Source: Alphaproteobacteria bacterium
GTDB lineage: Bacteria > Pseudomonadota > Alphaproteobacteria > DSM-16000 > Inquilinaceae
Assembly (NCBI GenBank): GCA_028277405.1
Contig: JANQGH010000072.1
Coordinates: 1-64,000, forward strand
Reading direction: 5' to 3'
Length of the DNA stretch: 64,000 nt
The translations under genes and the position numbers were made by a program. Below are positions 39,380 through 53,442 of the stretch, one piece after another. Position 1 is the stretch's first letter; each line of letters begins with the position of its first letter. The notes under the pieces were generated by a model. It worked only from the letters and a program-made list of their open reading frames with translations. It did no database searches and was not told the DNA's origin.

Positions 39380-39673
39380 TCGCCGCTCTCCTGTTCTTCC
39401 GGTCGGCCGTTGGCCGTCGATTTCTCCTGTCGGGATTAGGGGTGCCGTTTTTTTATTGATTAGTCAATCAAGAACCGTATGCTGGCTCGACGGAAATCGA
39501 AACGGGGGCCTGAGCCTTGGCATGCCGGTCTGGCATCGCCTTTCAGATGCGCCGATGCAAGCCGGGGATGCTTGGTTTTCGCGTCGGTGGGTCCTTTCAA
39601 CGCCGCCCCAGCCAACGCCCGCGTCGTAGGGCCAAGGGCCGATAACGCGCCGATCAAAAAGGGAGACTTCACG
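39380..39673. other. 294-bp divergent bet/cho control region
   Basis: This stretch separates betI from choX. It contains the probable BetI operator (39456-39471) next to a run of seven T, and must hold divergent promoters for both operons. The choX-proximal part (39490-39660) is GC-rich, with GGGAG 8 nt before the choX ATG. An in-frame extension of choX through it has no signal peptide and is not translated in my view. Confidence 0.5.
39456..39471. promoter_or_regulatory. Probable BetI operator
   Basis: TTGATT-AGTC-AATCAA is a perfect 6+6 inverted repeat in the middle of the betI-choX divergent region. It resembles the TTGATT...TCAAT-type dyads reported for BetI boxes, from memory of the family. 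It could repress both operons at once. Confidence 0.6.
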
Positions 39674-40621
39674 ATGCTTCGAACCGTTGCCGCCACACTG
39701 CTAACCGCCACCGCCATGCCCCTGATGATGCAGCCGGCCGCCGCGACGGACCCGGCGGAATGCCAGACCGTGCGCTTTTCCGATGTCGGCTGGACCGACA
39801 TCACGGCGACCACGGCCGCCACCTCGGTGGTGCTGGAGGGGCTGGGCTACGAGCCGGAGGAAAGCCTGCTGTCGGTGCCGGTGACCTATGTCAGCCTGGA
39901 GAACGGCGATATCGATATCTTCCTGGGCAACTGGATGCCGACCATGGAGGCGGATGTCCGGCCCTATCTGGACAACGGCACTGTGGAATCGGTGCGCGTC
40001 AATCTGGAAGGCGCGAAATACACGCTGGCCGTGCCGACCTATCTGGCCGATCAGGGCCTGACCAGCTTTGCCGATATCTCAAGCTTCGCCGATCAGCTCG
40101 ACGACGAGATCTATGGCATCGAGCCGGGCAATGACGGCAACCGCCTGATCCAGGACATGATCGACAACGACACGTTCGGACTGGGCGGCTTCGAACTGGT
40201 GGAATCCTCCGAGCAGGGCATGCTGTCGCAAGTGGCGCGGGCCACACGGTCGGACGAGGCGATCGTCTTCCTGGCCTGGGAGCCGCACCCGATGAACGCG
40301 AATTTCGACCTCACCTATCTGGCCGGCGGCGACGACATTTTCGGCCCGGATTTCGGCGGTGCGACGGTCTACACCAATGTGCGCGCGGGCTATCTGACCG
40401 AATGCCCCAATGTCGGCCAGTTGCTGGAGAACCTGGTCTTCACGCTGGCGATGGAAAACGAGATCATGGGCGCGATCCTGGATGACGGCGAGGCGCCCCA
40501 GGACGCGGCGGCGGACTGGCTGCGCGCCCATCCGGAGGTGTTCACCGGCTGGGTCGACGGCGTCACCACGTTCGACGGCCAGCCCGGTCTGGCGGCGGTG
40601 CGTGCCCATCTGGGCATCTGA
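39674..40621 (+). CDS. choX: Choline-binding periplasmic protein of the ChoXWV importer
   Basis: The product has 315 residues. Signal peptide MLRTVAATLLTATAMPLMM ends near PAAAT. The mature domain shows the ChoX/OpuAC pattern with tryptophans placed for an aromatic cation box: VGWTDITATTAATSVVLEGLGY, FLGNWMPTM, and FLAWEPHPMN; PGNDGNRLIQDMI is also typical. Two cysteines (PAECQTV and LTECPNV) may form a disulfide. It captures choline for import by ChoW and ChoV. GGGAG 8 nt before ATG 39674 sets the start. Confidence 0.93.
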   Translation: MLRTVAATLLTATAMPLMMQPAAATDPAECQTVRFSDVGWTDITATTAATSVVLEGLGYEPEESLLSVPVTYVSLENGDIDIFLGNWMPTMEADVRPYLDNGTVESVRVNLEGAKYTLAVPTYLADQGLTSFADISSFADQLDDEIYGIEPGNDGNRLIQDMIDNDTFGLGGFELVESSEQGMLSQVARATRSDEAIVFLAWEPHPMNANFDLTYLAGGDDIFGPDFGGATVYTNVRAGYLTECPNVGQLLENLVFTLAMENEIMGAILDDGEAPQDAAADWLRAHPEVFTGWVDGVTTFDGQPGLAAVRAHLGI

Positions 40622-40681
40622 TCAGATCGGGCGCCTTCGGGTCTGAAGCGGGCTTAACGCGGCCCGCTTCCGGCAACCGCC

Positions 40682-41539
40682 ATGCATGATTGGCTGACAG
40701 ACAACAAGCTGCCCCTGGGCGAGTGGATCGCGGCCGGCATGCACGCCGTGAACGAGCGTGCCGCCGGCGTCTTGAACGCCATCGCCGACACGATCGGCGA
40801 CGCGGCAGAGGCGGTCATCGACGCGCTTTTGTGGCTGCCGCCGCTCGTGCTGATCGTCATCATGGCGGGCCTGGTATTCCTGTGGCACCGCAAGTGGCAA
40901 CTGCCGCTGGCCATCATCGTGATGATGGGCCTGATCGTGAACCTCGGCTACTGGGAAGAGACAATCGAGACCCTGACACTGGTCTCGCTGGCCGCCGCCG
41001 TGTGCATGGTGATCGGCGTGCCCGTCGGCATCGCGGCGGCGCACCGGCCGTGGCTGTTCCGCGTGCTGCGGCCGATCCTGGATCTGATGCAGACGATCCC
41101 GACCTTCGTCTATCTGATCCCGACCCTGATCCTGTTCGGTCTGGGCATCGTGCCGGGCCTGATCTCTACCGTGATCTTCGCCATCGCCGCGCCGATCCGG
41201 CTGACCCATCTGGGCATCACCTCGGTTCCGACCCAGTTGAAGGAGGCGGGCGAGGCCTTCGGCGCGACCAAGCGCCAACTGTTGTGGCAGATCGAACTGC
41301 CGCACGCCATGCCGACCATCATGGCCGGCCTGACCCAATGCATCATGCTGTCCCTCTCGATGGTCGTGATCGCCGCCCTGGTCGGTGCCGACGGGCTGGG
41401 CGTGCCGGTGGTCCGGGCCTTGAACACGGTCAATATCGGCATGGGCTTCGAGGCCGGCCTGTCGATCGTCATCCTTGCGATCCTGCTCGACCGCGTGTTC
41501 CGGCCGCCGGAGCGGCGGGCCAAGGCGGCGGGGCCGTGA
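40682..41539 (+). CDS. choW: Choline ABC importer permease
   Basis: The product has 285 residues with about six to seven membrane helices after an amphipathic N-terminus. The ProW-type binding-protein-dependent permease motif reads TQLKEAGEAFGATKRQLLWQIELPHAMPTIMAGL. LMQTIPTFVYLIPTLILFGLGIVPGLIST is the usual helix pair of this branch. It forms the homodimeric channel for choline. The usual third gene, choV, is not directly adjacent: a convergent toxin-antitoxin pair lies in between, with only 5 bp between the choW stop and the antitoxin stop. Confidence 0.93.
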   Translation: MHDWLTDNKLPLGEWIAAGMHAVNERAAGVLNAIADTIGDAAEAVIDALLWLPPLVLIVIMAGLVFLWHRKWQLPLAIIVMMGLIVNLGYWEETIETLTLVSLAAAVCMVIGVPVGIAAAHRPWLFRVLRPILDLMQTIPTFVYLIPTLILFGLGIVPGLISTVIFAIAAPIRLTHLGITSVPTQLKEAGEAFGATKRQLLWQIELPHAMPTIMAGLTQCIMLSLSMVVIAALVGADGLGVPVVRALNTVNIGMGFEAGLSIVILAILLDRVFRPPERRAKAAGP

Positions 41540-41544
41540 GCGCG

Positions 41545-42012
41545 CTAATCGTCCAGGTCGACAAGGGCGTCGATCGGCAGATCAAGGGCGCTAGCGATCT
41601 TGGCGTAGGCGCTGATCGAGCCCGGCTTGGCGCCCTTTTCGATTTCCAGCAGATAACTGCCGGAAATGCCGGCCGCCTTGGCCAAGTCGGTCGCAGCGCG
41701 GAAGCCCTTGTGTTTGCGCCAGGCGCGGATCGGATGGACGCCGTCAAGCATCGCCTGCACCACGTCGATGGGAACGGTGTAGGGCGCCGGTTCACCTCGC
41801 GTGAGGTACTGGGCATCTTGGGCATCTTCCAGCCGGTCGCTGATTTCGTCCCAGACCGACAAGGTCAGCACGACGAGATCCGGCCGGTCCGGCGCTTGCG
41901 GGTTCCAAAGCGGTTCGCTGTCGGCGGCGTCAGCCAGGCGGGTCAGGTAAGCGATCCTTGGCGTCTTGGCGGCCGCGTCACCGCTGGGCTTGGCCGTCAG
42001 TATCTCGTTCAT
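41545..42012 (-). CDS. HTH-domain antitoxin paired with a RelE-type toxin
   Basis: The product has 155 residues. The N-terminal half is variable (ARLADAADSEPLWN-type linker, SVWDEISDRLEDAQDAQYL), and the C-terminal helix-turn-helix reads IRAWRKHKGFRAATDLAKAAGISGSYLLEIEKGAKPGSISAYAKIASALDLPIDALV, a cro/CI type. It starts inside the stop of the RelE-type gene (ATGA overlap), so toxin precedes antitoxin as in higBA-like modules. It should neutralise the toxin and bind the repeats at 42296-42339. The pair runs antisense to the cho operon. Confidence 0.87.
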   Translation of the reverse strand: MNEILTAKPSGDAAAKTPRIAYLTRLADAADSEPLWNPQAPDRPDLVVLTLSVWDEISDRLEDAQDAQYLTRGEPAPYTVPIDVVQAMLDGVHPIRAWRKHKGFRAATDLAKAAGISGSYLLEIEKGAKPGSISAYAKIASALDLPIDALVDLDD

Positions 42013-42284
42013 GATCGGTATATCTCCCTTCGATGGCCGACATGGGTGACCAGCATCACCCGGACGGTACGGTCGACCTGGTATATTGCGCGCCAGTTGC
42101 CTTGCCGTACACGGTGCGCGGGTCGGCCTTGCAGCTTGGTGGCATACGCGCGAGGGGCGAACGGGTCTGCCGCGATTCGCCCCAGTTTGCTCAGCAACGC
42201 CTTGCCGTCCCTGGCCGGCATTGCTCTCAGACCCTTTGCCGCCGCCGGTTCAAACTCCAACCGGTATAATGGCGTCGCGGTCAT
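42009..42284 (-). CDS. RelE/ParE-family toxin
   Basis: The product has 91 residues: YRLEFEPAAAKGLRAMPARDGKALLSKLGRIAADPFAPRAYATKLQGRPAHRVRQGNWRAIYQV...VMLVTHVGHRREIYR. This is the RelE superfamily, with the basic C-terminal VGHRREIY segment where RelE mRNA interferases keep their catalytic Arg and Tyr. The partner antitoxin is coupled through an ATGA overlap. The ATG at 42284 lies 12 bp from the first palindromic repeat upstream, fitting an autoregulated promoter. The module separates choW from choV. Confidence 0.88.
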   Translation of the reverse strand: MTATPLYRLEFEPAAAKGLRAMPARDGKALLSKLGRIAADPFAPRAYATKLQGRPAHRVRQGNWRAIYQVDRTVRVMLVTHVGHRREIYRS

Positions 42285-42295
42285 TGGCTCAATAT

Positions 42296-42339
42296 CGCTA
42301 TTAGCGGGAAGAAAGCCAAGCAGAAATCCAGCTATTAGC
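42296..42339. promoter_or_regulatory. Paired palindromic repeats, likely operator of the RelE/HTH module
   Basis: CGCTATTAGCG (42296-42306) and GCTATTAGC (42331-42339) are two copies of the same palindrome, 34 bp apart, a little over three helical turns. They lie between the divergent relE-type and choV genes, so binding of the antitoxin could affect both. Confidence 0.6.
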
Positions 42340-42365
42340 GTTTTCTGGTCGAAAGCGCCTGCCCG

Positions 42366-43526
42366 ATGAGCGTCGCGGTTTCGTTTCGGCATGTCGATGT
42401 CGTGTTTGGCGACAATGCCCATGAGGCGCTGCCCTTGGTGGATCAGGGCTTGAGCCGGGCGGAGATCCTGGAACGGACCGGGGCGGTGTTGGGCGCGCGG
42501 GACGCGACGTTGGACGTGCCCTCGGGCGGTATCGTCGTGCTGATGGGGCTGTCGGGGTCCGGCAAGTCGACCTTGCTGCGCTGTGTCAACGGGCTGAACA
42601 AGGTCACGCGCGGCCAGTTGCTGGTCGAAGGCGAGCACGGCACGGTTGACGTCGCCTCGTGCGGCCAGGCCGACCTGCGCCGTATCCGCCAGCACCGGGT
42701 CGCGATGGTGTTTCAGCAGTTCGCGCTGCTGCCCTGGCGCACCGTGCGCGAGAATGTCGGCTTCGGGCTGGAACTGCGCGGTGCGCCCCGGCAGGAAATC
42801 GACGATCGGGTCGCGGAAATGCTGTCGCTGGTCGACCTCGACGGCTGGGGCGACAAGTATGCGCATGAGCTGTCCGGCGGCATGCAGCAGCGCGTCGGCC
42901 TGGCCCGCGCCTTTGCCACCGATGCGCCGATCTTGCTGATGGACGAGCCGTTTTCGGCGCTGGACCCGCTGATCCGCGTGCGGCTGCAGGACGAGTTGTT
43001 GGACCTGCAGGAACGGCTGAAGAAGACCGTGATCTTCGTCAGCCATGATCTCGATGAGGCGATGAAGCTGGGCAACCGGATCGCCATCATGGAAGGCGGC
43101 GACATTGTGCAGTTCTCCACGCCCGAAGGCGTGCTGTTGAACCCGGCCAACGATTATGTCGCCGATTTCGTCGCCAATCTGAATCCGCTGAACGTGCTGA
43201 CCGCCCGAACGCTGATGACGCCGCTGGAAACGTTGGCGCGCGAGGGCGACACCTATCTGGTTGAGGATGCGTCGGAATGGCGGCTGATGCCGGGCGATGA
43301 CGGCCTGCGCTGCGCTCGCAACGGCGAGTCCATGGTGCTGCCGTCGAGCGCGACGGCAGGGCAGTTGTTTGCCGTGTCGCCCGAGATCTCGCTGCGCGAA
43401 GCGGTGGAGCTGCACCGGCTTACGCGTGAGCCCCTGGTGGTGATGGACGACGGCAGACCGATCGGCGTGCTGTGCGATACCCAGCTCTTTGACGGAATTC
43501 TGAAGCGGATCGACAACGGTGCTTGA
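42366..43526 (+). CDS. choV: Choline ABC importer ATP-binding protein
   Basis: The product has 386 residues. Walker A is LMGLSGSGKSTLL, the Q-loop FQQFALLPWRTV, the signature LSGGMQQRVGLARAF, Walker B ILLMDEPFSALDPLIR and the H-loop VSHDLDEAMKLGNR. The N-terminal extension (FGDNAHEALPLVDQGLSRAEILERTG) and C-terminal CBS-like region (SLREAVELHRLTREPLVVMDDGRPIGVLCD) are characteristic of ChoV/ProV. It powers choline import with ChoX and ChoW. Because a toxin-antitoxin pair lies antisense upstream, it needs its own promoter or read-through of about 830 bp from choW. Confidence 0.93.
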   Translation: MSVAVSFRHVDVVFGDNAHEALPLVDQGLSRAEILERTGAVLGARDATLDVPSGGIVVLMGLSGSGKSTLLRCVNGLNKVTRGQLLVEGEHGTVDVASCGQADLRRIRQHRVAMVFQQFALLPWRTVRENVGFGLELRGAPRQEIDDRVAEMLSLVDLDGWGDKYAHELSGGMQQRVGLARAFATDAPILLMDEPFSALDPLIRVRLQDELLDLQERLKKTVIFVSHDLDEAMKLGNRIAIMEGGDIVQFSTPEGVLLNPANDYVADFVANLNPLNVLTARTLMTPLETLAREGDTYLVEDASEWRLMPGDDGLRCARNGESMVLPSSATAGQLFAVSPEISLREAVELHRLTREPLVVMDDGRPIGVLCDTQLFDGILKRIDNGA

Positions 43527-44115: not shown

Positions 44116-44829
44116 TCAGGGGCTGTTCCGCTCGATCCTGAAAACCCCGCCGCTCGTCTCGTCGCGGACATAGTCGATGGCCGTGCCGTCGAAATGGTAG
44201 GCGAGCGCGCGGCCGTGAACGGGGATGGCGACGACGTCGGGCCAGAAGGCGGCGAGGCATTCGCCGCCCGGATCGCGAACGCTGGGGAAGACGATGCCGT
44301 CGGCGCCGGCGTCTCTGAGGGTTCGGGCAAGGCTCTGGGGCGGGCCATAGTCGTCGGGATCTAGGAACGGTGCGGAGGACGGATCGCCGCCGCGTAGATC
44401 GTGGAGGTGTCTTCGGACGGCGCCGACCAGTTCCCGATACTGAGAGAACCAGCCGGGCACCTGGTCCGTTGCGCGGAAAAAGACCGCGCGGTGGTGGGTG
44501 TGCTCGGCGAGCGCCGTCTCGAAGCGCTTGGCCGCGTAGTAGGCGCCGAACATGCCGTCATGGAAGCGGCCCGGCCGGTCGGGGCTGACATGGACGAAGG
44601 GCGCCATGACGTTGGATGCGCCCGTGCCGGCCACGCTGCGTTCCGGCGGGATCAGGTCCAGCGCGCCGACGCTTTCGGCCAGGCGCGGATTGGTCTTGGC
44701 TTCGCCATTGCCGATCAGGTCCCAATCGGCGGGGTCGGCGATGTCCTCGAACAGATGGATCGGCGGGTGTCGGGTTGAGATGATGCGGCGCGCATCCGGC
44801 CAGTCAACCAGCCGCCTTGGGATCTGCAC
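44116..44829 (-). CDS. RES-domain toxin (larger type)
   Basis: The product has 237 residues. The N-terminal region (ARRIISTRHPPIHLFEDIADPADWDLI) precedes the RES core with NPRLAESVGALDLIPPERSV, FHDGMFGAYYAAKRFETALAEHTHHRAVFF and a C-terminal SVRDPGGECLAAFWPDVV. Arg, Glu and Ser positions of the family are present. Longer RES proteins of this kind pair with DUF2384/MbcA-type antitoxins, as here (14 bp upstream). It starts with GTG. The expected activity is NAD+ breakdown or NAD+-dependent modification. It differs clearly from the RES protein at 23448, so the two modules should not cross-neutralise. Confidence 0.88.
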   Translation of the reverse strand: MQIPRRLVDWPDARRIISTRHPPIHLFEDIADPADWDLIGNGEAKTNPRLAESVGALDLIPPERSVAGTGASNVMAPFVHVSPDRPGRFHDGMFGAYYAAKRFETALAEHTHHRAVFFRATDQVPGWFSQYRELVGAVRRHLHDLRGGDPSSAPFLDPDDYGPPQSLARTLRDAGADGIVFPSVRDPGGECLAAFWPDVVAIPVHGRALAYHFDGTAIDYVRDETSGGVFRIERNSP

Positions 44830-44843
44830 CGCGCCTGACCGGC

Positions 44844-45251
44844 CTAGCCGCGTTCGGCGTCGAGATAGTGGCGCACGCGCATCAGGTCGGTGATGGCGCC
44901 GCCCAGCATGACCTCAAGCGCCGTCTTGCCGCCAAAGGTCTTGTTCGGCGTCTTGACCCAGCGATAGGCGCGGGCGTTGTCGCTGAACAGCACGCGCAGG
45001 GCCTTGTGGATGCCCATCAGGGTCGACAGGCGGGTCTTCAAATCGACCGACAGGCGCGGCAGCGCGCCCCGTTTCCAACGGGTGTAGGTGGCCGGCGATA
45101 CCTCGCCCAACAGCGTGCGGGCCTGGGCATCGGTCAGCCCCCAGCGGTCGAACAGGTTGACCGTGGCGCGCGCCATCGCGGCGCCCTCGGCATCGCTGAT
45201 GCGCTGGTCGAATGCGGGCGTTTCAGGTGTTGCAACGGGCACGAGCTGCAT
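44844..45251 (-). CDS. MbcA/ParS/Xre-family (DUF2384) antitoxin
   Basis: The product has 135 residues. A helical N-terminus is followed by ATVNLFDRWGLTDAQARTLLGEVSPATYTRWKRG (helix-turn-helix) and LSTLMGIHKALRVLFSDNARAYRWVKTPNKTFGGKTALEVMLGGAITDLMRVRHYLDAERG, the toxin-binding domain whose C-terminus enters the RES active site. AAGGAGAG precedes the ATG at 45251. It is the first gene of a two-gene operon with the RES toxin and is probably autoregulatory. Confidence 0.93.
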   Translation of the reverse strand: MQLVPVATPETPAFDQRISDAEGAAMARATVNLFDRWGLTDAQARTLLGEVSPATYTRWKRGALPRLSVDLKTRLSTLMGIHKALRVLFSDNARAYRWVKTPNKTFGGKTALEVMLGGAITDLMRVRHYLDAERG

Positions 45252-45347: not shown

Positions 45348-47675
45348 TCATGCTTCGACGAATACTCCGCTGCGGCCATAGGCCTCTTCCTCCGGTGTCA
45401 GGTGGGGCGGGTCGTCCTCCAGGGTCGGGTCGAAGCTGTAGGTCTGCTCCAGAAACGCGCTGTCAAACACCGCCTTTTCCAGGTCGACGACGGCGGCATG
45501 GCTTTCCCGGATCGCGGCGGTCAGCGCCGGACCGTCGTCTTGGCTAAACGCGAGGCACAAGGCGTTGCGCAGGGTCGCCAGCGACGAGACAGGCTTCAGC
45601 AGCAGGTGAACGCGCCACAGCCGGTCCAGCGGGATGGTGTCATGGCCAAAGGCGCGTGCGCGCGCCAACTCCGCGCCCACGCTGGGCCAGTGGCGGGTGG
45701 TGTAGATCGCGTGCTCGTCACGCCGATACCAGGGTTCAGTCCGCTCGATCGAGGCCGACACCGAATTGTGCAGCTTCCACAGGAACAGCCGCAGCGACGG
45801 CCCATCGGTGATGACCGACAGCTTGTCCTCGATCGAGACAAGCAGGTCGACCGAGCCTGCCTTGTCGCCAAGGCGCGGGCCGAGCAGGAGGTATTCCAGC
45901 GGGTACATGTCGATCTCGACATTGCGCACGACATAGAGGTTGAGGTGGTGCCGGCAGTAGGGGCAGGCGTAGACGGTCGCGAAGACGCGGAAGAAGTCCT
46001 TGAACAGGTCGATCAGGGCGGGCTGCTGGTCGGGCTCGCGCGCCGCGACCAGTTCGGCGACGGTATGCAGGAAGCGCCAGGTCGGGCGGCCGATATAGTA
46101 GGGAAAGCTGACGCGCATCTGGGCCTGACGCACGTCGCTGCGGCCGAGATAGACGTCTAGGAATGCGACATATTGCGACAGAAAGCCGGACTCGCGGCCG
46201 AATTCCTCGCGCTCGCGCCGTTTTTGCACGCCGTTCATGTAGTGCCGGGTCAGCCGCCAGGCCTGGCGGATGGCGAGCTTGTGTTCCGGGCTGCAGGCCG
46301 GGAAATGCTCGGCCACGTCGGCGCCGTAATGGTCGAACTCGCCATCGTCGCGCGCGGTCGCGAACCAGCGGTCAAGCGCCGCGGTGTCCGGCACCGTGCT
46401 TTGTGCGATGTCGTCGGCGCCCTGGACACTGCAGGCAGCCAGCAGCTTGGGCATGAAATCCTCATACCAATAGGCCGCCGGCATCATGGCCCCGTCGATC
46501 GCCTCGTCGCTGGACCTGATCAGGACCCGGTTCCAGACACCAAGATAGGTGGCCGGATCGGCGCCGTCGGTGCCCGGCGGGGCGGCCATCTCGTGATGCA
46601 GTTCCAAATGGCGCAGGCGCGCGGCCTCGTGCCGGGCCATGGCGTCCGACCCGAGATCGGCCATCGTCAGGTTCTTGCGGCGTAAGGTGAGCGCCAGTTC
46701 GACGCCGGCCATCAGCGTTTCGGCAACCGACGACTGGGCCGTGCGCTGGCGTTCCATCGCCTCGGCCGCCTCCATCATGGCCTTGGTCTTGGTCACGTTT
46801 GGCCAGTTGGCGATGCGGTCCTGCAGGCGGGCGTATTCGGCGTTCACCGACGCGGTCACCGCGTCGAGCACGGGGAAACAGGCCGGATCGACGACGCCCA
46901 AGGCCTTGTAAAGCGCGATGGCCCGGTCGACGAAGGCGACGAAGTCGGGCATCGTGTACGGCAGATTGCGGGCCCGCAGATGGGTCATCGCGTGGGCCGA
47001 ATAGCTCTCGCGAAAACAGCGATAGGCCGCGCCCTGAAGCAGGCGGAACAGGCCGATCTGCATCTGCAGGAGTGACGTGCCCTGGCCATAGCTTGCACGC
47101 CGATGAACGACTGGCGCGTGGTGCGCGGCGCCGCCGATCGGCGGCGGCTCGGACGCAACGGTCTCGCTGGTCGATACGTCACCGCGGCGGATCGCGCTGA
47201 CGAACGGTGTGGTGTGGTCGCGATAACTTTTGTCCGGCCCGGTGTGCCCGTGCGGGACCAGCTCGCGAAACTCGTCGAGGTCGATACTGCCGTCGCCGTC
47301 CCGGTCGGCCTCGGCGAAGATCGCGTCGAGATCCTCGTCGCTGACGCTGAACTGTCCCAGAAAGTGCCGCAGCTCGTCGCGCGAGATCCGGCCGTCGCCA
47401 TTTTCGTCCAGGACGTGGAAGGCGATTCGAGTGCGGCTCTCGATATTGCCATGAAGCGAGGCGAGCAGGGCCGCGAACTGGGCATGGCCGATGCCCTCAC
47501 GCGCGGCGACGTCGTCGGTGAGGTGCCGCATCTCCTCATCGCTGGCGTCATGGCCCAGTTCCGCCAGCAGGCGGTTCAGCCCCGTCAGCCCGACCACTTC
47601 GGTGCCGTCGGACCCGATTGTCTTGAACCGCCGCCACAACGCTTCGATGGCGTCGGTATTGAGCGTGCCCGTCAT
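45348..47675 (-). CDS. EF-hand protein fused to an ERV/ALR-like sulfhydryl-oxidase domain
   Basis: The product has 775 residues and no signal peptide. Residues about 5-140 are calmodulin-like: two degenerate EF-hands, then two canonical loops, DENGDGRISRDE (90-101) and DRDGDGSIDLDE (124-135), with all Ca2+ ligands present. A large helical middle (about 200-520) matches nothing I know. Residues about 540-645 look like an ERV/ALR flavin sulfhydryl oxidase: GRPTWRFLHTVAELVA, FKDFFRVFATVYACPYCRHHL with Cys571 and Cys574, and LFLWKLHNSVSASI, the W..HN..V FAD-stacking motif. A 140-residue helical tail follows. ERV enzymes form disulfides by reducing O2; calcium control would be new to me. Start ATG 47675 is best guess, since no clear ribosome site exists. 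The gene stands alone. Confidence 0.75.
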   Translation of the reverse strand: MTGTLNTDAIEALWRRFKTIGSDGTEVVGLTGLNRLLAELGHDASDEEMRHLTDDVAAREGIGHAQFAALLASLHGNIESRTRIAFHVLDENGDGRISRDELRHFLGQFSVSDEDLDAIFAEADRDGDGSIDLDEFRELVPHGHTGPDKSYRDHTTPFVSAIRRGDVSTSETVASEPPPIGGAAHHAPVVHRRASYGQGTSLLQMQIGLFRLLQGAAYRCFRESYSAHAMTHLRARNLPYTMPDFVAFVDRAIALYKALGVVDPACFPVLDAVTASVNAEYARLQDRIANWPNVTKTKAMMEAAEAMERQRTAQSSVAETLMAGVELALTLRRKNLTMADLGSDAMARHEAARLRHLELHHEMAAPPGTDGADPATYLGVWNRVLIRSSDEAIDGAMMPAAYWYEDFMPKLLAACSVQGADDIAQSTVPDTAALDRWFATARDDGEFDHYGADVAEHFPACSPEHKLAIRQAWRLTRHYMNGVQKRREREEFGRESGFLSQYVAFLDVYLGRSDVRQAQMRVSFPYYIGRPTWRFLHTVAELVAAREPDQQPALIDLFKDFFRVFATVYACPYCRHHLNLYVVRNVEIDMYPLEYLLLGPRLGDKAGSVDLLVSIEDKLSVITDGPSLRLFLWKLHNSVSASIERTEPWYRRDEHAIYTTRHWPSVGAELARARAFGHDTIPLDRLWRVHLLLKPVSSLATLRNALCLAFSQDDGPALTAAIRESHAAVVDLEKAVFDSAFLEQTYSFDPTLEDDPPHLTPEEEAYGRSGVFVEA

Positions 47676-47836
47676 GCGCAAAAGCCACTTGTTCGTCCCG
47701 TCAAGGCACTCGCATTGTGCGCGGGAAACCGATGCTGGCAAGTCGCAGCGGCAGCCGACGACCGGTCGTCACCGGGATGCGGCGTCCGCAGCGTGCCGAT
47801 CGGGGGAACCGCCTCAGAAGTGCTAGAACACCGGCC

Positions 47837-48475
47837 ATGCTGAAACTCGACCATTTGACCGTGATCGCGCCGACGTTGAGCGAAGGCGTGTCGCACGTCA
47901 GAGACTGCCTCGACATCGACGTGCCGTTCGGCACCCGGCATCTTTACATGGGCACGCACAATCACCGGCTTCGGCTTGGCGACGCCGTCTATCTCGAGAT
48001 CGTGGCCCTTGATCCCGATGGGGTCTCGCCCGGGCGACCCCGCTGGTTCGGCGTGGACGATCGGGACACGGTCCGATCGGACTGGGAGGACGGGCGGCGC
48101 CTGCGCGGCTGGGTGGCCAGCACCGTGGATATCGACCGGGAATTGGCCGGCCATCCAGGCGTTTTTGGTGAGCGGGTCGCTTTGCCGTTCGACAAGCCGG
48201 CGTTCAATTTCTCCATCCCGCCGGATGGCTCTCTGCCGCTGGACGGTGCGGTGCCTTCGCTGATCGATCATCGCGATGACTTGGCGTTCCTGGCGAACAT
48301 TCCGGATTTGGGCGCGCAGCTGCGGGCCGTTTCGCTGGAGCACCCGGAGCCTGCGGCCATTACGGCGCTCTATGAGCAGCTTGCGATCGATCGCCCGCCA
48401 GAGGTCGTGCCCGGTTCCCGGGTCCGCTATCGGGCCCGGATCGAGACACCGAGCGGCTTGCGGGTGCTAACCTGA
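47837..48475 (+). CDS. VOC-superfamily (Glyoxalase_3-like) protein
   Basis: The product has 212 residues. It begins MLKLDHLTVIAPTLSEGVSHVRDCLDIDVPFGTRH, then NHRLRLGDAVYLEIVALDPDG, the usual first half of the glyoxalase-like domain found in unannotated proteins of about this length. The second half (FNFSIPPDGSLPLDGAVPSLIDH, LRAVSLEHPEP) completes the fold. Function unknown; possibly a lyase or binding protein for hydrophobic acids. It is divergent from the EF-hand/ERV gene and its 3' end overlaps the convergent LytTR gene by 9 bp. Confidence 0.82.
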   Translation: MLKLDHLTVIAPTLSEGVSHVRDCLDIDVPFGTRHLYMGTHNHRLRLGDAVYLEIVALDPDGVSPGRPRWFGVDDRDTVRSDWEDGRRLRGWVASTVDIDRELAGHPGVFGERVALPFDKPAFNFSIPPDGSLPLDGAVPSLIDHRDDLAFLANIPDLGAQLRAVSLEHPEPAAITALYEQLAIDRPPEVVPGSRVRYRARIETPSGLRVLT

Positions 48476-49252
48476 CGTCAGGGCCTCTCGAACGCGGCTG
48501 CGGTAGGCGCGTCCGACGGGCACCGTCTGACCGTCTCTCAGTACGATGACCGGCGCGCCGCCGCGATATTCGTAGGCGCCGATCCAGGCTCTCGCCACCC
48601 ACCATGACCGGTGAACCCGCACGCCGTAGGGGCCCAGTTCCTGGTCCGCTTCGCGCAACGGGGCGCGGATCAGGGTTTCACCCTTTGGGGTCACGGCCCT
48701 GAGGTAGTGATCCTGGGTTTGCAGCAGCATCAGGTCTCGGCCGATTGCATCGGGCAGGCGATCGAGCCATGCCGGCTTGTCTGGCGGAGGCGGCTGGTCG
48801 GTCGCGACGATCTGACGCTCCGCGAAGGCGTAGAACAGCGCGGAAACCGCGACGCTGATCACGGCAACATAGGGCAAGAAGACAAGCGCCCACTCGACGA
48901 AGGGCGCGCCAAACGCGACCCGATGGAGGCCGGCCAGCCAGAGGGTGACCGGAAGGGAACCGGCCAGGCCGCTGAACACGACCAGCAGCGGCAGGCTTAG
49001 ACCCTTTGCCTCGGCCATGGCGGCGGCGGTCGCGGACGGCAGAAACCCGATCCAAAAGGTGGTCGCGCAGACGGCCAGCCAATAGGCAAGGCGGGCGACA
49101 AGCGGCATGTCCGCGAACGTGCCGAAGGGGCCGATCAGCCCGATGACAAGGGCGGCGCCCAACAGCGACAGCCAGAAGGTCGGGCGCCGTGCAAGGTCCT
49201 TCGCCTCCGTTGCCGCGTACGCGAACGGGCTGTCGTCTGCGACATTCTCCAT
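48467..49252 (-). CDS. Membrane-anchored LytTR-family transcriptional regulator
   Basis: The product has 261 residues. Four hydrophobic helices (about 25-150: FWLSLLGAALVIGLIG, LAYWLAVCATTFWIGFL, LPLLVVFSGLAGSLPVTLWL, VFLPYVAVISVAVSALFYAF) precede a LytTR DNA-binding domain (DLMLLQTQDHYLRAVTPKGETLIRAPLREADQELGPYGVRVHRSWWVARAWI). Such proteins sense a membrane signal directly rather than through a response-regulator receiver. It faces the DUF418 gene, with twin CCAATTGG sites in the gap. ATG 49252 is used; earlier in-frame codons run into that control region. Confidence 0.9.
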   Translation of the reverse strand: MENVADDSPFAYAATEAKDLARRPTFWLSLLGAALVIGLIGPFGTFADMPLVARLAYWLAVCATTFWIGFLPSATAAAMAEAKGLSLPLLVVFSGLAGSLPVTLWLAGLHRVAFGAPFVEWALVFLPYVAVISVAVSALFYAFAERQIVATDQPPPPDKPAWLDRLPDAIGRDLMLLQTQDHYLRAVTPKGETLIRAPLREADQELGPYGVRVHRSWWVARAWIGAYEYRGGAPVIVLRDGQTVPVGRAYRSRVREALTSG

Positions 49253-49359
49253 GCTGTTCGCGCCTCTTCGGTTTTCTGCACCAGGGATCGGCGGTATCAG
49301 TCTTAGAACACGGGCTGTGTACGAAAATCGAATTACGCCGACCGCGTCATTGATCCTGG

Positions 49360-50644: not shown

Positions 50645-51754
50645 CTATGTGTGCCAGTTGACACGCCCCGCTTCGACGATGAGCCCGTTGCCCGGTGCCA
50701 GCGATAGCGTTTGGGTCTCGGGAGACAGTCTTCCGCCGCTGCCAAGCTTGAGCGACCGCCGACAGATATCCGAGCGCAGCAGGATGGTGCCGTAGGCGCC
50801 TTCGCGGGCGAGTGGTGGGGTTTCGAGGGCCTGGCCGACGGTGAGGGCGGCGCGGGTGAGCAGACTGGTTTCGCCGACATGGGCGCCCAGGATGACGCCG
50901 AGGCCGAGCGCCTGGGCACGACGGGCGAGCCGGACCGCGCGCAGGATGCCGCCGCATTTGGAGACGCGGATGTTGGCGATCCAGCGCTCAGGGTCGGCCG
51001 CGTAGGCGTCGAGCTGGCCCTGGCGGCTGAGGCTTTCGTCGAGGATGATCCTGACGTCGAGGTCGTTGGCGATGGCGCGCATGGCTTCGGTGTCGCCGGC
51101 GGTGACGGGCTCCTCGATCGCCCAGAAGGGCTGGCCGAGTGCCCGGACATGGGTGGTGCAGGCCGCGGCGTCAGGCCAGAGATTGTTGGCGTCGGCGCGC
51201 AGGCGGGCGCGGTTTGGTAGGGCGCGGAGGCGACGGCGGTCGGTGTCCAGGTCGCCGTTCAGCTTGATCTTGTAGTCCCTGAAACCGATCAGGCGGTGGG
51301 CGCCGACAATCAGGCGGGTCTTGCAGGGCGAGCCGTCGCCGATGATGGCGCTGTAGCGGACCGGCGCGGCGAGGGCGGGCGCGCCGATCATGCCTTCCAG
51401 CGGCTGACCTGACTGACGGCCAAGCAGATCGAGCATCGCGAGTTCGATGGCGGCGAAGGCGGCGGGGTTGGCGTCGATCTGGGCTTCGTGGTCGTCGATC
51501 CAGCTCTGGAGATCGGCAACTGAGGTGACGCTGTCGGCGATGTCGGGGCCGTGTTCGCGCAAAAAGGCCTTGGCCGTTGCGACCGTCTCGCCGGTGACGT
51601 AGGCGCGCGGGCAGCCTTCACCATAGCCGCGCACACCGTCGGCGCCGGTGACTTCGACAATGACGTTTTCCGTCGTCGACCGGTCGGCGGCGGCGTGGCG
51701 GAAGCGAAAGCGGAGATCGGTGTGAAACTGGCCGACGCGGACCGAGGCCGTCAT
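50645..51754 (-). CDS. Enolase-superfamily epimerase (muconate-lactonizing subgroup, dipeptide-epimerase-like)
   Basis: The product has 369 residues. After a capping domain (GYGEGCPRAYVTGET), the barrel shows KIK (Lys162, Lys164), metal ligands Asp188 (RADANN), Glu214 (IEEP) and Asp239 (ILDES), and Lys266 in RVSKCGG. The KxK plus opposite Lys pair marks the subgroup of muconate cycloisomerases, o-succinylbenzoate synthases and dipeptide epimerases; two facing lysines suit 1,1-proton transfer (epimerisation). Its ATG overlaps the GH3 stop (ATGA), so it is coupled to an amide-forming enzyme, which suggests it acts on an N-acyl amino acid or dipeptide made by that partner. Confidence 0.87.
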   Translation of the reverse strand: MTASVRVGQFHTDLRFRFRHAAADRSTTENVIVEVTGADGVRGYGEGCPRAYVTGETVATAKAFLREHGPDIADSVTSVADLQSWIDDHEAQIDANPAAFAAIELAMLDLLGRQSGQPLEGMIGAPALAAPVRYSAIIGDGSPCKTRLIVGAHRLIGFRDYKIKLNGDLDTDRRRLRALPNRARLRADANNLWPDAAACTTHVRALGQPFWAIEEPVTAGDTEAMRAIANDLDVRIILDESLSRQGQLDAYAADPERWIANIRVSKCGGILRAVRLARRAQALGLGVILGAHVGETSLLTRAALTVGQALETPPLAREGAYGTILLRSDICRRSLKLGSGGRLSPETQTLSLAPGNGLIVEAGRVNWHT

Positions 51755-53442
51755 GACGCGACGCGGTTGAGGGCCGGCTCGTGGAACGGTTCCAGGGTCA
51801 GCGGGGCCAGTTTTTCCGACCAGTCGCTTGCGTAGGCGACCAAGACGGGCTTGTACTGCGCCTCGCGGATACCGCCCTCCACGCTCCACCGTTTGATCTG
51901 CTCCGTGGCGCCGACCGTGAACTGTTGGACGATCAGGGGCTGCAGCCGACCGCTGGCGCGCTTGTCGTCATATTCGCTGTTCAGCGCGCGCAACTGCGTC
52001 TCGACGTCGTGGGCGAGGTCGGCCGGCAGCGGGTTGTCGCCGCATTCCAGGTGCACGACGTAGCGGGCGGCGGCCTCGTCAGCCAGGGCCATGAAGCCCG
52101 GCGTTTTCAGGCCGTGATCGTCCAGCACCGTGATCACGGCGGTGGCGAGTTGATGCTCGCTGACCTTCTCGCCTGTGATGTTGGTGACGCCGCGGCCCTT
52201 TTGCAGAAAGCGCAGGCCGGGACAGCCGCGCACGCCCGGTTCGGCGCGGACGATGTCGTTGATGTCGTAGCGGTAGAGGCCCGATCGGGTGGTGACGAAG
52301 ATGTAGTAGTCCTCGCCCGGCTCAAGCTCGTGCAGGCCGAGGAAGGATTGCCGGCCCGCCTCCCAATCCTCGCGGCGCACGAACTCGTAGACATGGTGGG
52401 TGAGCTGGGGCAGGCAGGTGTTGGCCTCCGCATCGATGTTGGCGGCACCCATGAACTCGCTGGCGCTGTAGCCGAACTCGACGATGCGGACGCCGCGCGG
52501 CAATTGGGATCGCACCTGGCTGAGCGCGACGCCGCAACTGCCGCCGGTCCAGGTGGCGATGGCCGACAGGCGGGGCCAGACGTCGCGCGGGTCGAGCGTG
52601 TCGCGGGACACCAGCTTTCGGCGCAGCGCGTTTACCCGGTCGAGGCCGCGTCGGGTGATGATGTCCATGGCCACCGACGCCGCCTCGATCTTCAGGTTCT
52701 CGGTGCGGCCGAAGGCGAGCGCGTGCAGCAGCTCGCGGCCTTGCGTCTCGATAATCCGTTGGACCTTCAACAGCGAGGAGGGGTTGGCGGCGACCACGCC
52801 GGTGATGTCGTCCGCCGCCAGCACGGCCAGCGCGTAGGCCTGGTACTTGGCCTCCAAATCCCGGATCGAGAAGGTGGACGGCGGCAGCACGAATTTGCGC
52901 GCCATGATCGGCGACAGGGACCGGTAGGTGGTGCCGGAGATGGCGCCGTAGGGCTGGCCGGTTTCCAGCCTGCCTTCCTCCGCCGGGCTGGCGAAGCCGA
53001 GGATCGAGCCTTTGAAGAAGCCGGTGCCGCGCCAGAGGGAGAGCGCCAGATGCCGCTGGGCGTCCTTCACCTGGTTCAGGCCGTGGCTGGTCTGCGGGAT
53101 GTCCTTGCTGCGCCCGGTAGTGCCGCTGGTGCGGGCATAGTACTCTGGCTGTTCGGTGGTCAGGGCGCGCTCGCCGCCCTGCTGGCGGGTGATGTAGGGC
53201 GCGAGCTGGTCGAAGCCGTGGACGGGTACGGCATTGCGGTAGTCCTCAAGGCTGGAGATGGTGGCGAAGCCGTGCGCGCGGCCGAAGGTCGTGTCGGCGT
53301 TTTCGCGCAGGATGGTCATCAGAAGCTGGTGCTGGGCCCGTTCCACATCGCGGGCGGCGCGCAGGACGGGCGCACGCATGGTCCAGCGGTTCCAATGCAT
53401 GAAGGCGTCGATCGCCCGGTTCGCGATCATGTTAGCGGGCAT
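51751..53442 (-). CDS. GH3-family acyl-acid amido synthetase
   Basis: The product has 563 residues, the usual GH3 length. The ATP loop is YARTSGTTGRSKDIP (Ser106 region), and later motifs are EFGYSASEFMG, YYIFVTTRSGLYRYDINDIV and FLQKGRGVTNITGEKVSEHQLATAV, all typical of the acyl-adenylating fold of GH3. Plant GH3 enzymes conjugate jasmonate, auxin or benzoates to amino acids; bacterial members are little studied. It is the middle gene of a tight operon: 6 bp after the hydroxylase stop and overlapping the epimerase start. I infer a step joining a (perhaps hydroxylated) carboxylic acid to an amino acid. Confidence 0.9.
   Translation of the reverse strand: MPANMIANRAIDAFMHWNRWTMRAPVLRAARDVERAQHQLLMTILRENADTTFGRAHGFATISSLEDYRNAVPVHGFDQLAPYITRQQGGERALTTEQPEYYARTSGTTGRSKDIPQTSHGLNQVKDAQRHLALSLWRGTGFFKGSILGFASPAEEGRLETGQPYGAISGTTYRSLSPIMARKFVLPPSTFSIRDLEAKYQAYALAVLAADDITGVVAANPSSLLKVQRIIETQGRELLHALAFGRTENLKIEAASVAMDIITRRGLDRVNALRRKLVSRDTLDPRDVWPRLSAIATWTGGSCGVALSQVRSQLPRGVRIVEFGYSASEFMGAANIDAEANTCLPQLTHHVYEFVRREDWEAGRQSFLGLHELEPGEDYYIFVTTRSGLYRYDINDIVRAEPGVRGCPGLRFLQKGRGVTNITGEKVSEHQLATAVITVLDDHGLKTPGFMALADEAAARYVVHLECGDNPLPADLAHDVETQLRALNSEYDDKRASGRLQPLIVQQFTVGATEQIKRWSVEGGIREAQYKPVLVAYASDWSEKLAPLTLEPFHEPALNRVAS

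Follow-up and report, generated by a model that had tools for sequence, protein, structure and literature searches.

The window, by which we mean the whole stretch of 64,000 nucleotides that was analysed, carries on its minus strand a single uninterrupted open reading frame (45348-47675) coding for a protein of 775 amino acids, in which an N-terminal calmodulin-like domain is followed by a linker, a helical middle domain, an ERV/ALR domain and a helical tail. The frame, its coordinates, its strand and all the motifs quoted for it in a first-pass annotation of this DNA were re-derived as originally described. The features of the gene are the following.

45348..47675, minus strand: whole gene, 775 amino acids, ATG start, with an in-frame TTG further upstream at 47741
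47244..47675, minus strand: calmodulin-like domain, residues 1-144; canonical loops lost in the first lobe, family profile aligning to full calmodulin
47373..47408, minus strand: EF-hand loop 3, DENGDGRISRDE, residues 90-101 (Pfam and loop count)
47271..47306, minus strand: EF-hand loop 4, DRDGDGSIDLDE, residues 124-135 (Pfam and loop count)
47085..47243, minus strand: linker, residues 145-197, unconserved (median identity 13%) and probably disordered (pLDDT <50 for residues 144-194)
46095..47084, minus strand: helical middle domain, residues 198-527, probably including a counterpart of the pseudo-Erv and, beyond it, about 230 further conserved residues
46185-46235, minus strand: NGVQKRREREEFGRESG, residues 481-497, nearly invariant, strongly basic and poorly modelled
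45606..46094, minus strand: ERV/ALR domain, residues 528-690 (PF04777, profile matches and predicted model)
46062..46079, minus strand: WRFLHT, motif of ERV helix 1, residues 533-538, in which W, R, H and T are invariant
45954..45965, minus strand: CPYC redox motif, Cys571 and Cys574, invariant in 78 of 78 members
45756..45788, minus strand: LFLWKLHNSVS, HNxVN-type ERV motif on helix 4, residues 630-640 (from conservation)
45351..45605, minus strand: helical C-terminal tail, residues 691-775 (predicted model)

As for the domain composition, the Pfam search of the window protein returned an EF-hand pair (PF13499) at residues 83-139 (E 1.1e-14) and an Evr1/Alr domain (PF04777) at residues 531-584 (E 6.6e-8; 33.3 bits vs. 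a curated cut-off of 27.6), bearing out the earlier proposal that a calmodulin-like module and an ERV/ALR domain occur in one bacterial protein. Over the whole genome, the window gene is the sole PF04777 match, above the cut-off, and 14 control genomes gave zero matches. When the window protein was shuffled, the motif string W..[LFM]H - CxxC - HNxV[NS] was recovered in none of 200,000 sequences, and an EF-loop pair in 7 out of 20,000.

Directly downstream of the gene, an Xre/MbcA/ParS antitoxin (PF09722) is paired with a RES-domain toxin (PF08808) at 44116-45251 (minus strand); a divergent RES/Xre pair lies about 9 kb from the homolog in Gemmobacter, and such a pair was found at no other family locus examined. 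A second toxin-antitoxin candidate, at 41545-42300 (minus strand), consists of an HTH antitoxin beside an apparent RelE/ParE-like toxin frame, the toxin being recognised by eye. The plus strand carries, at 39479-43526, a choline-type ABC transporter made up of a substrate-binding protein, a permease and a ChoV-like ATPase, the best plasmid matches of the latter being in Indioceanicola and Methylobacterium. On the other side of the gene, both on the minus strand, are found a LytTR DNA-binding domain with an apparently membrane-spanning N-terminus (48467-49324) and a GH3 family protein (PF03321) adjoining a mandelate racemase/enolase-type gene (51751-53442). The GH3 family is known from plant hormone conjugation. 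Concerning possible operon or system partners, the clustering of genes flanking the family loci revealed no gene common to distant lineages at a consistent place, and the genes in common mostly track close relatedness; the protein therefore most likely acts alone.

A search of plasmids with tblastn identified a 42% identical protein on a plasmid of Gemmobacter aquarius, annotated as "ERV1/ALR-related protein". An alignment of the window and Gemmobacter proteins was then the query for a scan of 84,980 GTDB species genomes, which provided at least 99 loci encoding relatives, a lower bound since the scan relies on exact peptide patterns. The best 80 of these 99 were kept; they are mostly matched over their full length, with 40-56% identity, and homologs align across residues 5-774 of the window protein. 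Members are found in many filamentous cyanobacteria, in Synechococcus and Prochlorococcus, in Alphaproteobacteria such as Pelagibius and Ruegeria, in unclassified proteobacterial MAGs and in Nannocystis. Judged by these alignments, the window protein is not a one-off and belongs to a rare conserved family of cyanobacteria, some proteobacteria and Nannocystis. The MAG record L073, titled Klebsiella pneumoniae, holds a member that groups with the unclassified proteobacterial MAGs, and the species name of this record is probably wrong. Viral carriers were found neither in IMG/VR, scanned three times with patterns, nor by tblastn against phages.

The family was present in 7 of 194 sampled cyanobacterial genomes (two with relic copies), in 1 of 398 sampled Pseudomonadota, which is the window's own genome, and in 1 of 237 sampled genomes of the Nannocystis phylum, which is the starting genome. 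PF04777 itself was matched in 1 of 299 Pseudomonadota and 9 of 244 cyanobacterial genomes sampled, in agreement with the rarity of ERV proteins in bacteria asserted at the outset. All the PF04777 matches in these genomes lie in family-sized frames, save one of 362 amino acids in a genome that also has a broken family copy. Among 95 genomes of relatives of the host, including 16 from its own family, no close kin was detected. In the core tree, cyanobacteria, proteobacteria and Nannocystis are interleaved, at least three label changes being forced by the starred branches; this topology is compatible with horizontal transfer without being proof of it.

Within the ERV/ALR domain, PF04777 was matched individually by all 56 aligned family members. 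Fifteen positions are invariant in these 56 sequences, namely W533, R534, H537, T538, C571, P572, Y573, C574, R575, H577, N579, W633, K634, H636 and N637, and the invariance of CPYC in 78 out of 78 members holds among the best 80 of the 99 relatives. The profile search against the Evr1/Alr family, which the first-pass annotation had named as one way to check its assignment, placed PF04777 above its cut-off, as given above, and the profile of the ERV domain reached the solved structures of Arabidopsis Erv1, yeast Erv1, yeast Erv2 and ALR (best 6.3e-6). In the comparison of profiles, the order of LFLWKLHNSVS corresponds to the HNTVN of Arabidopsis Erv1. After Cys571 and Cys574, the commonest cysteines are C461 (66/78) and C266 (64/78), and no second conserved pair was found among the 78 members. 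Since no cysteine besides Cys571 and Cys574 is invariant, a shuttle disulfide is not conserved in the family, as has also been described for many Erv enzymes of viruses (PMC3509050). The protein possesses both the PF04777 domain and the redox CxxC of an ERV/ALR sulfhydryl oxidase, and the fold would place CPYC beside the flavin.

The N-terminal family profile aligns to complete calmodulin, and in the fold search calmodulin and troponin C were matched with Z 10-11. EF-hand_7 was matched by 50 of the 56 aligned members, and the family as a whole displays the two-lobed arrangement of four EF-hands, with the spacing seen in calmodulin. The two loops initially claimed at residues 90-101 and 124-135 were both found. 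The term "calmodulin-like" holds in full for the family with its four EF-hands, whereas the window protein has canonical loops in the second lobe only, its first two loops lacking the ligands that loops 3 and 4 have. A match to the XopAW effector (39 bits vs. a cut-off of 120) was rejected, as it is due to common EF-hands only.

For the whole protein, the AlphaFold2 model had a mean pLDDT of 74.6, and calmodulin and troponin C took up its list of structural matches; the core (residues 198-775) modelled alone had a pLDDT of 77.0 and a pTM of 0.84. The helices of this core model, to whose numbering 197 is added to obtain that of the protein, include 530-544, 551-568, 572-578 and 625-646, the third one beginning within CPYC. 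The predicted core would thus present its helices in ERV order, with CPYC opening helix 3; model confidence is modest for the CPYC helix and for the NGxQKRRER stretch. A plain Foldseek search of the core gave no match at E <0.5. Among the matches listed by the VIA second-look fold search, from which baculovirus Ac92 and other Erv structures are absent, the QSOX of T. brucei (3qd9_B) came first with Z 10.4 and an rmsd of 4.1 over 216 residues, followed at Z 5.5 by the next match; helical bundles may reach Z of about 13 through common arrangement, and the value of 10.4 is to be read with this in mind.

This alignment spans model positions 1-555 and chain positions 212-434, entry numbers being the chain index + 15 according to the printed sequence and the C353 mutation. 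In TbQSOX, 212-434 starts where the pseudo-Erv domain aligns to human QSOX1 (query sequence 100% matched to 3lli) and ends at the end of Erv. With 216 residues aligned out of a maximum of 223, the pseudo-Erv domain must for the most part pair with the middle domain of the model. A QSOX-like pseudo-Erv/Erv core is therefore probable on the predicted structure, from which the likeness of the pseudo-Erv half comes with no accompanying sequence signal: hhalign against QSOX sequences aligned the Erv half only, and weakly (P 0.007), including the W-P stretch after the HN helix, and FAD_SOX (PF18371) was not found by sequence search of the genome. The ERV-type layout read from the motifs is in this way supported by the predicted helix order and by the top structural match. 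What had been called a large unknown helical region is indeed helical; it is no longer simply unknown, as it probably holds the pseudo-Erv partner. Three of its stretches, FRLxQGAAYRxFR, YWYxxFMPxLL and NGxQKRRERxE, are near-invariant and may mark a second site. The basic segment NGVQKRREREEFGRESG (residues 481-497) is retained even in members without calcium loops.

Taken as a whole, the protein is probably, in our view, an FAD thiol oxidase that would be regulated by calcium in most lineages. For the chemistry we draw on what is established for Erv enzymes; the gating is what we infer. In this presumably soluble protein, Cys571-Cys574 would be reduced directly, whether by the thiols of the substrate, by a small thiol or by a partner protein, and electrons would pass from there to FAD and on to oxygen, with a disulfide and hydrogen peroxide as products in the cytoplasm. 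Carried on its disordered linker, the calmodulin-like domain would gate or recruit upon calcium in the loop-retaining lineages: its lobe, sitting where QSOX has its substrate-binding thioredoxin, would move relative to the core once calcium is bound, and access to CPYC would be opened or closed. For the clade without calcium ligands, the same domain would be a fixed scaffold. The cytoplasmic location is deduced from the lack of an evident export signal: judged from hydrophobicity only, and in keeping with the absence of a signal peptide first reported, no signal peptide or membrane helix was evident, with no 19-residue window above 1.7 (Kyte-Doolittle) in any member. A thiol oxidase in the cytoplasm is at odds with a reducing compartment, which counts against this explanation, even though it is the best one. 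The more specific version, that of a calcium-gated bacterial sulfhydryl oxidase whose pseudo-Erv/Erv core is of the QSOX type and which turns cytoplasmic calcium signals into disulfides and hydrogen peroxide, is offered tentatively.

The distribution of canonical EF-hand loops, counted by regular expression among the best 80 of the 99 relatives, bears on whether calcium regulates the oxidase at all. In the main cyanobacterial clade, 50 of 51 members have kept four loops with the spacing of calmodulin, as have both Nannocystis, a pattern suggestive of selection for calcium binding in these groups; this near-perfect retention in the main cyanobacterial clade would be the strongest support for gating, and it speaks against a thiol oxidase free of calcium regulation, in which the EF-hand domain would be structural or serve for docking and calcium would at most be stabilising. 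Such an oxidase, which we consider rather unlikely, would nevertheless agree with other parts of the family, where CPYC stays invariant while the five alphaproteobacterial sequences closest to that of the window have only one or two canonical loops and 13 of the 14 members of the picocyanobacterial/Rhodobacterales clade have none. Calcium is therefore not essential to the core function, and this clade, which lost the loops yet kept the core, is the weakest point of the gating.

Another alternative places the main activity in the middle domain, as an enzyme or binding domain for which ERV would act as redox switch or as flavin-binding scaffold rather than make disulfides in general. It is consistent with a median identity between the window protein and the members that is as high in the middle domain (54-68%) as in the ERV domain (57%), with invariant R, H, W and Y residues and with the approximately 230 residues beyond the pseudo-Erv part, but no known fold or family was matched to the middle domain (by sequence, neither in Pfam nor in the PDB) and the QSOX match suggests that part of it packs as pseudo-Erv; we hold this alternative to be improbable. 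Finally, chance motif matches or an assembly artefact fusing two genes, for which no supporting point was found, are ruled out for practical purposes by independent full-length homologs across many genomes and contigs and by the one unbroken frame.

If the calcium-regulated oxidase is correct, calcium binding would be linked to thiol oxidation in bacteria, where little is known of what calcium signals lead to, and the family, with its members having four, two or no calcium loops, forms a natural set of variants. With respect to novelty, no description of a calmodulin-ERV fusion was found in the literature searched, which excludes most subscription journals. The label "undescribed" given to the system thus stands for the fusion in that literature; it does not extend to the occurrence of PF04777 in Nostocales, Oscillatoriophycideae, Rhizobiales and Rhodobacterales, already published (PMC10598087), nor to the Gemmobacter member, which already bears an ERV1/ALR-related name.

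Compared with known systems, Erv1, Erv2 and ALR are the sole solved proteins of the fold reached by the sequence profile, and share with the window protein the W..LHT, YPCxxC and HNxV motifs; they are, however, short proteins that form homodimers and in most cases carry a shuttle cysteine pair, whereas the window protein has 775 amino acids and no conserved second pair. Among predicted viral structures (BFVD), the only giant-virus match by Foldseek was A0A5K0UAY3 of Yasminevirus, named "Histidine kinase", which aligns to the full model (E 2e-15, 825 columns) but has 1140 amino acids and 18% identity, the likeness being one of predicted structures. Bacterial fusions of calmodulin-like EF-hands to redox enzymes are known from cyanobacteria and other bacteria, although ERV or sulfhydryl oxidase is not named as a partner in the text describing them (PMC7016017), and they are counted as support for a calcium-regulated thiol oxidase.

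The closest comparison is with QSOX. Since the best structural alignment of the predicted core is with the pseudo-Erv and Erv module of T. brucei QSOX (3qd9), and the Erv helices, CxxC, HN motif and subsequent W/F-P stretch line up, the protein would resemble a QSOX with calmodulin taking the place of thioredoxin. Unlike QSOX, the window protein has a calmodulin-like domain at the N-terminal place, where residues 1-144 are EF-hand and Pfam detects no thioredoxin family; it has no CxxC besides 571-574, and hence no C-terminal one, nor an evident signal peptide, and it shows about 230 extra middle residues and a longer CxxC-to-HN spacing (65 residues). Lacking the thioredoxin and the C-terminal CxxC, it is classed with the ERV/ALR kind, with a QSOX-like core, and not as a QSOX. 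According to a QSOX review, the Trx-Erv fusion occurs in the eukaryotic cell only, and QSOX is set apart by its pseudo-Erv/Erv unit (PMC3616962); a bacterial family with a QSOX-similar module but no thioredoxin would provide a concrete case for comparison.
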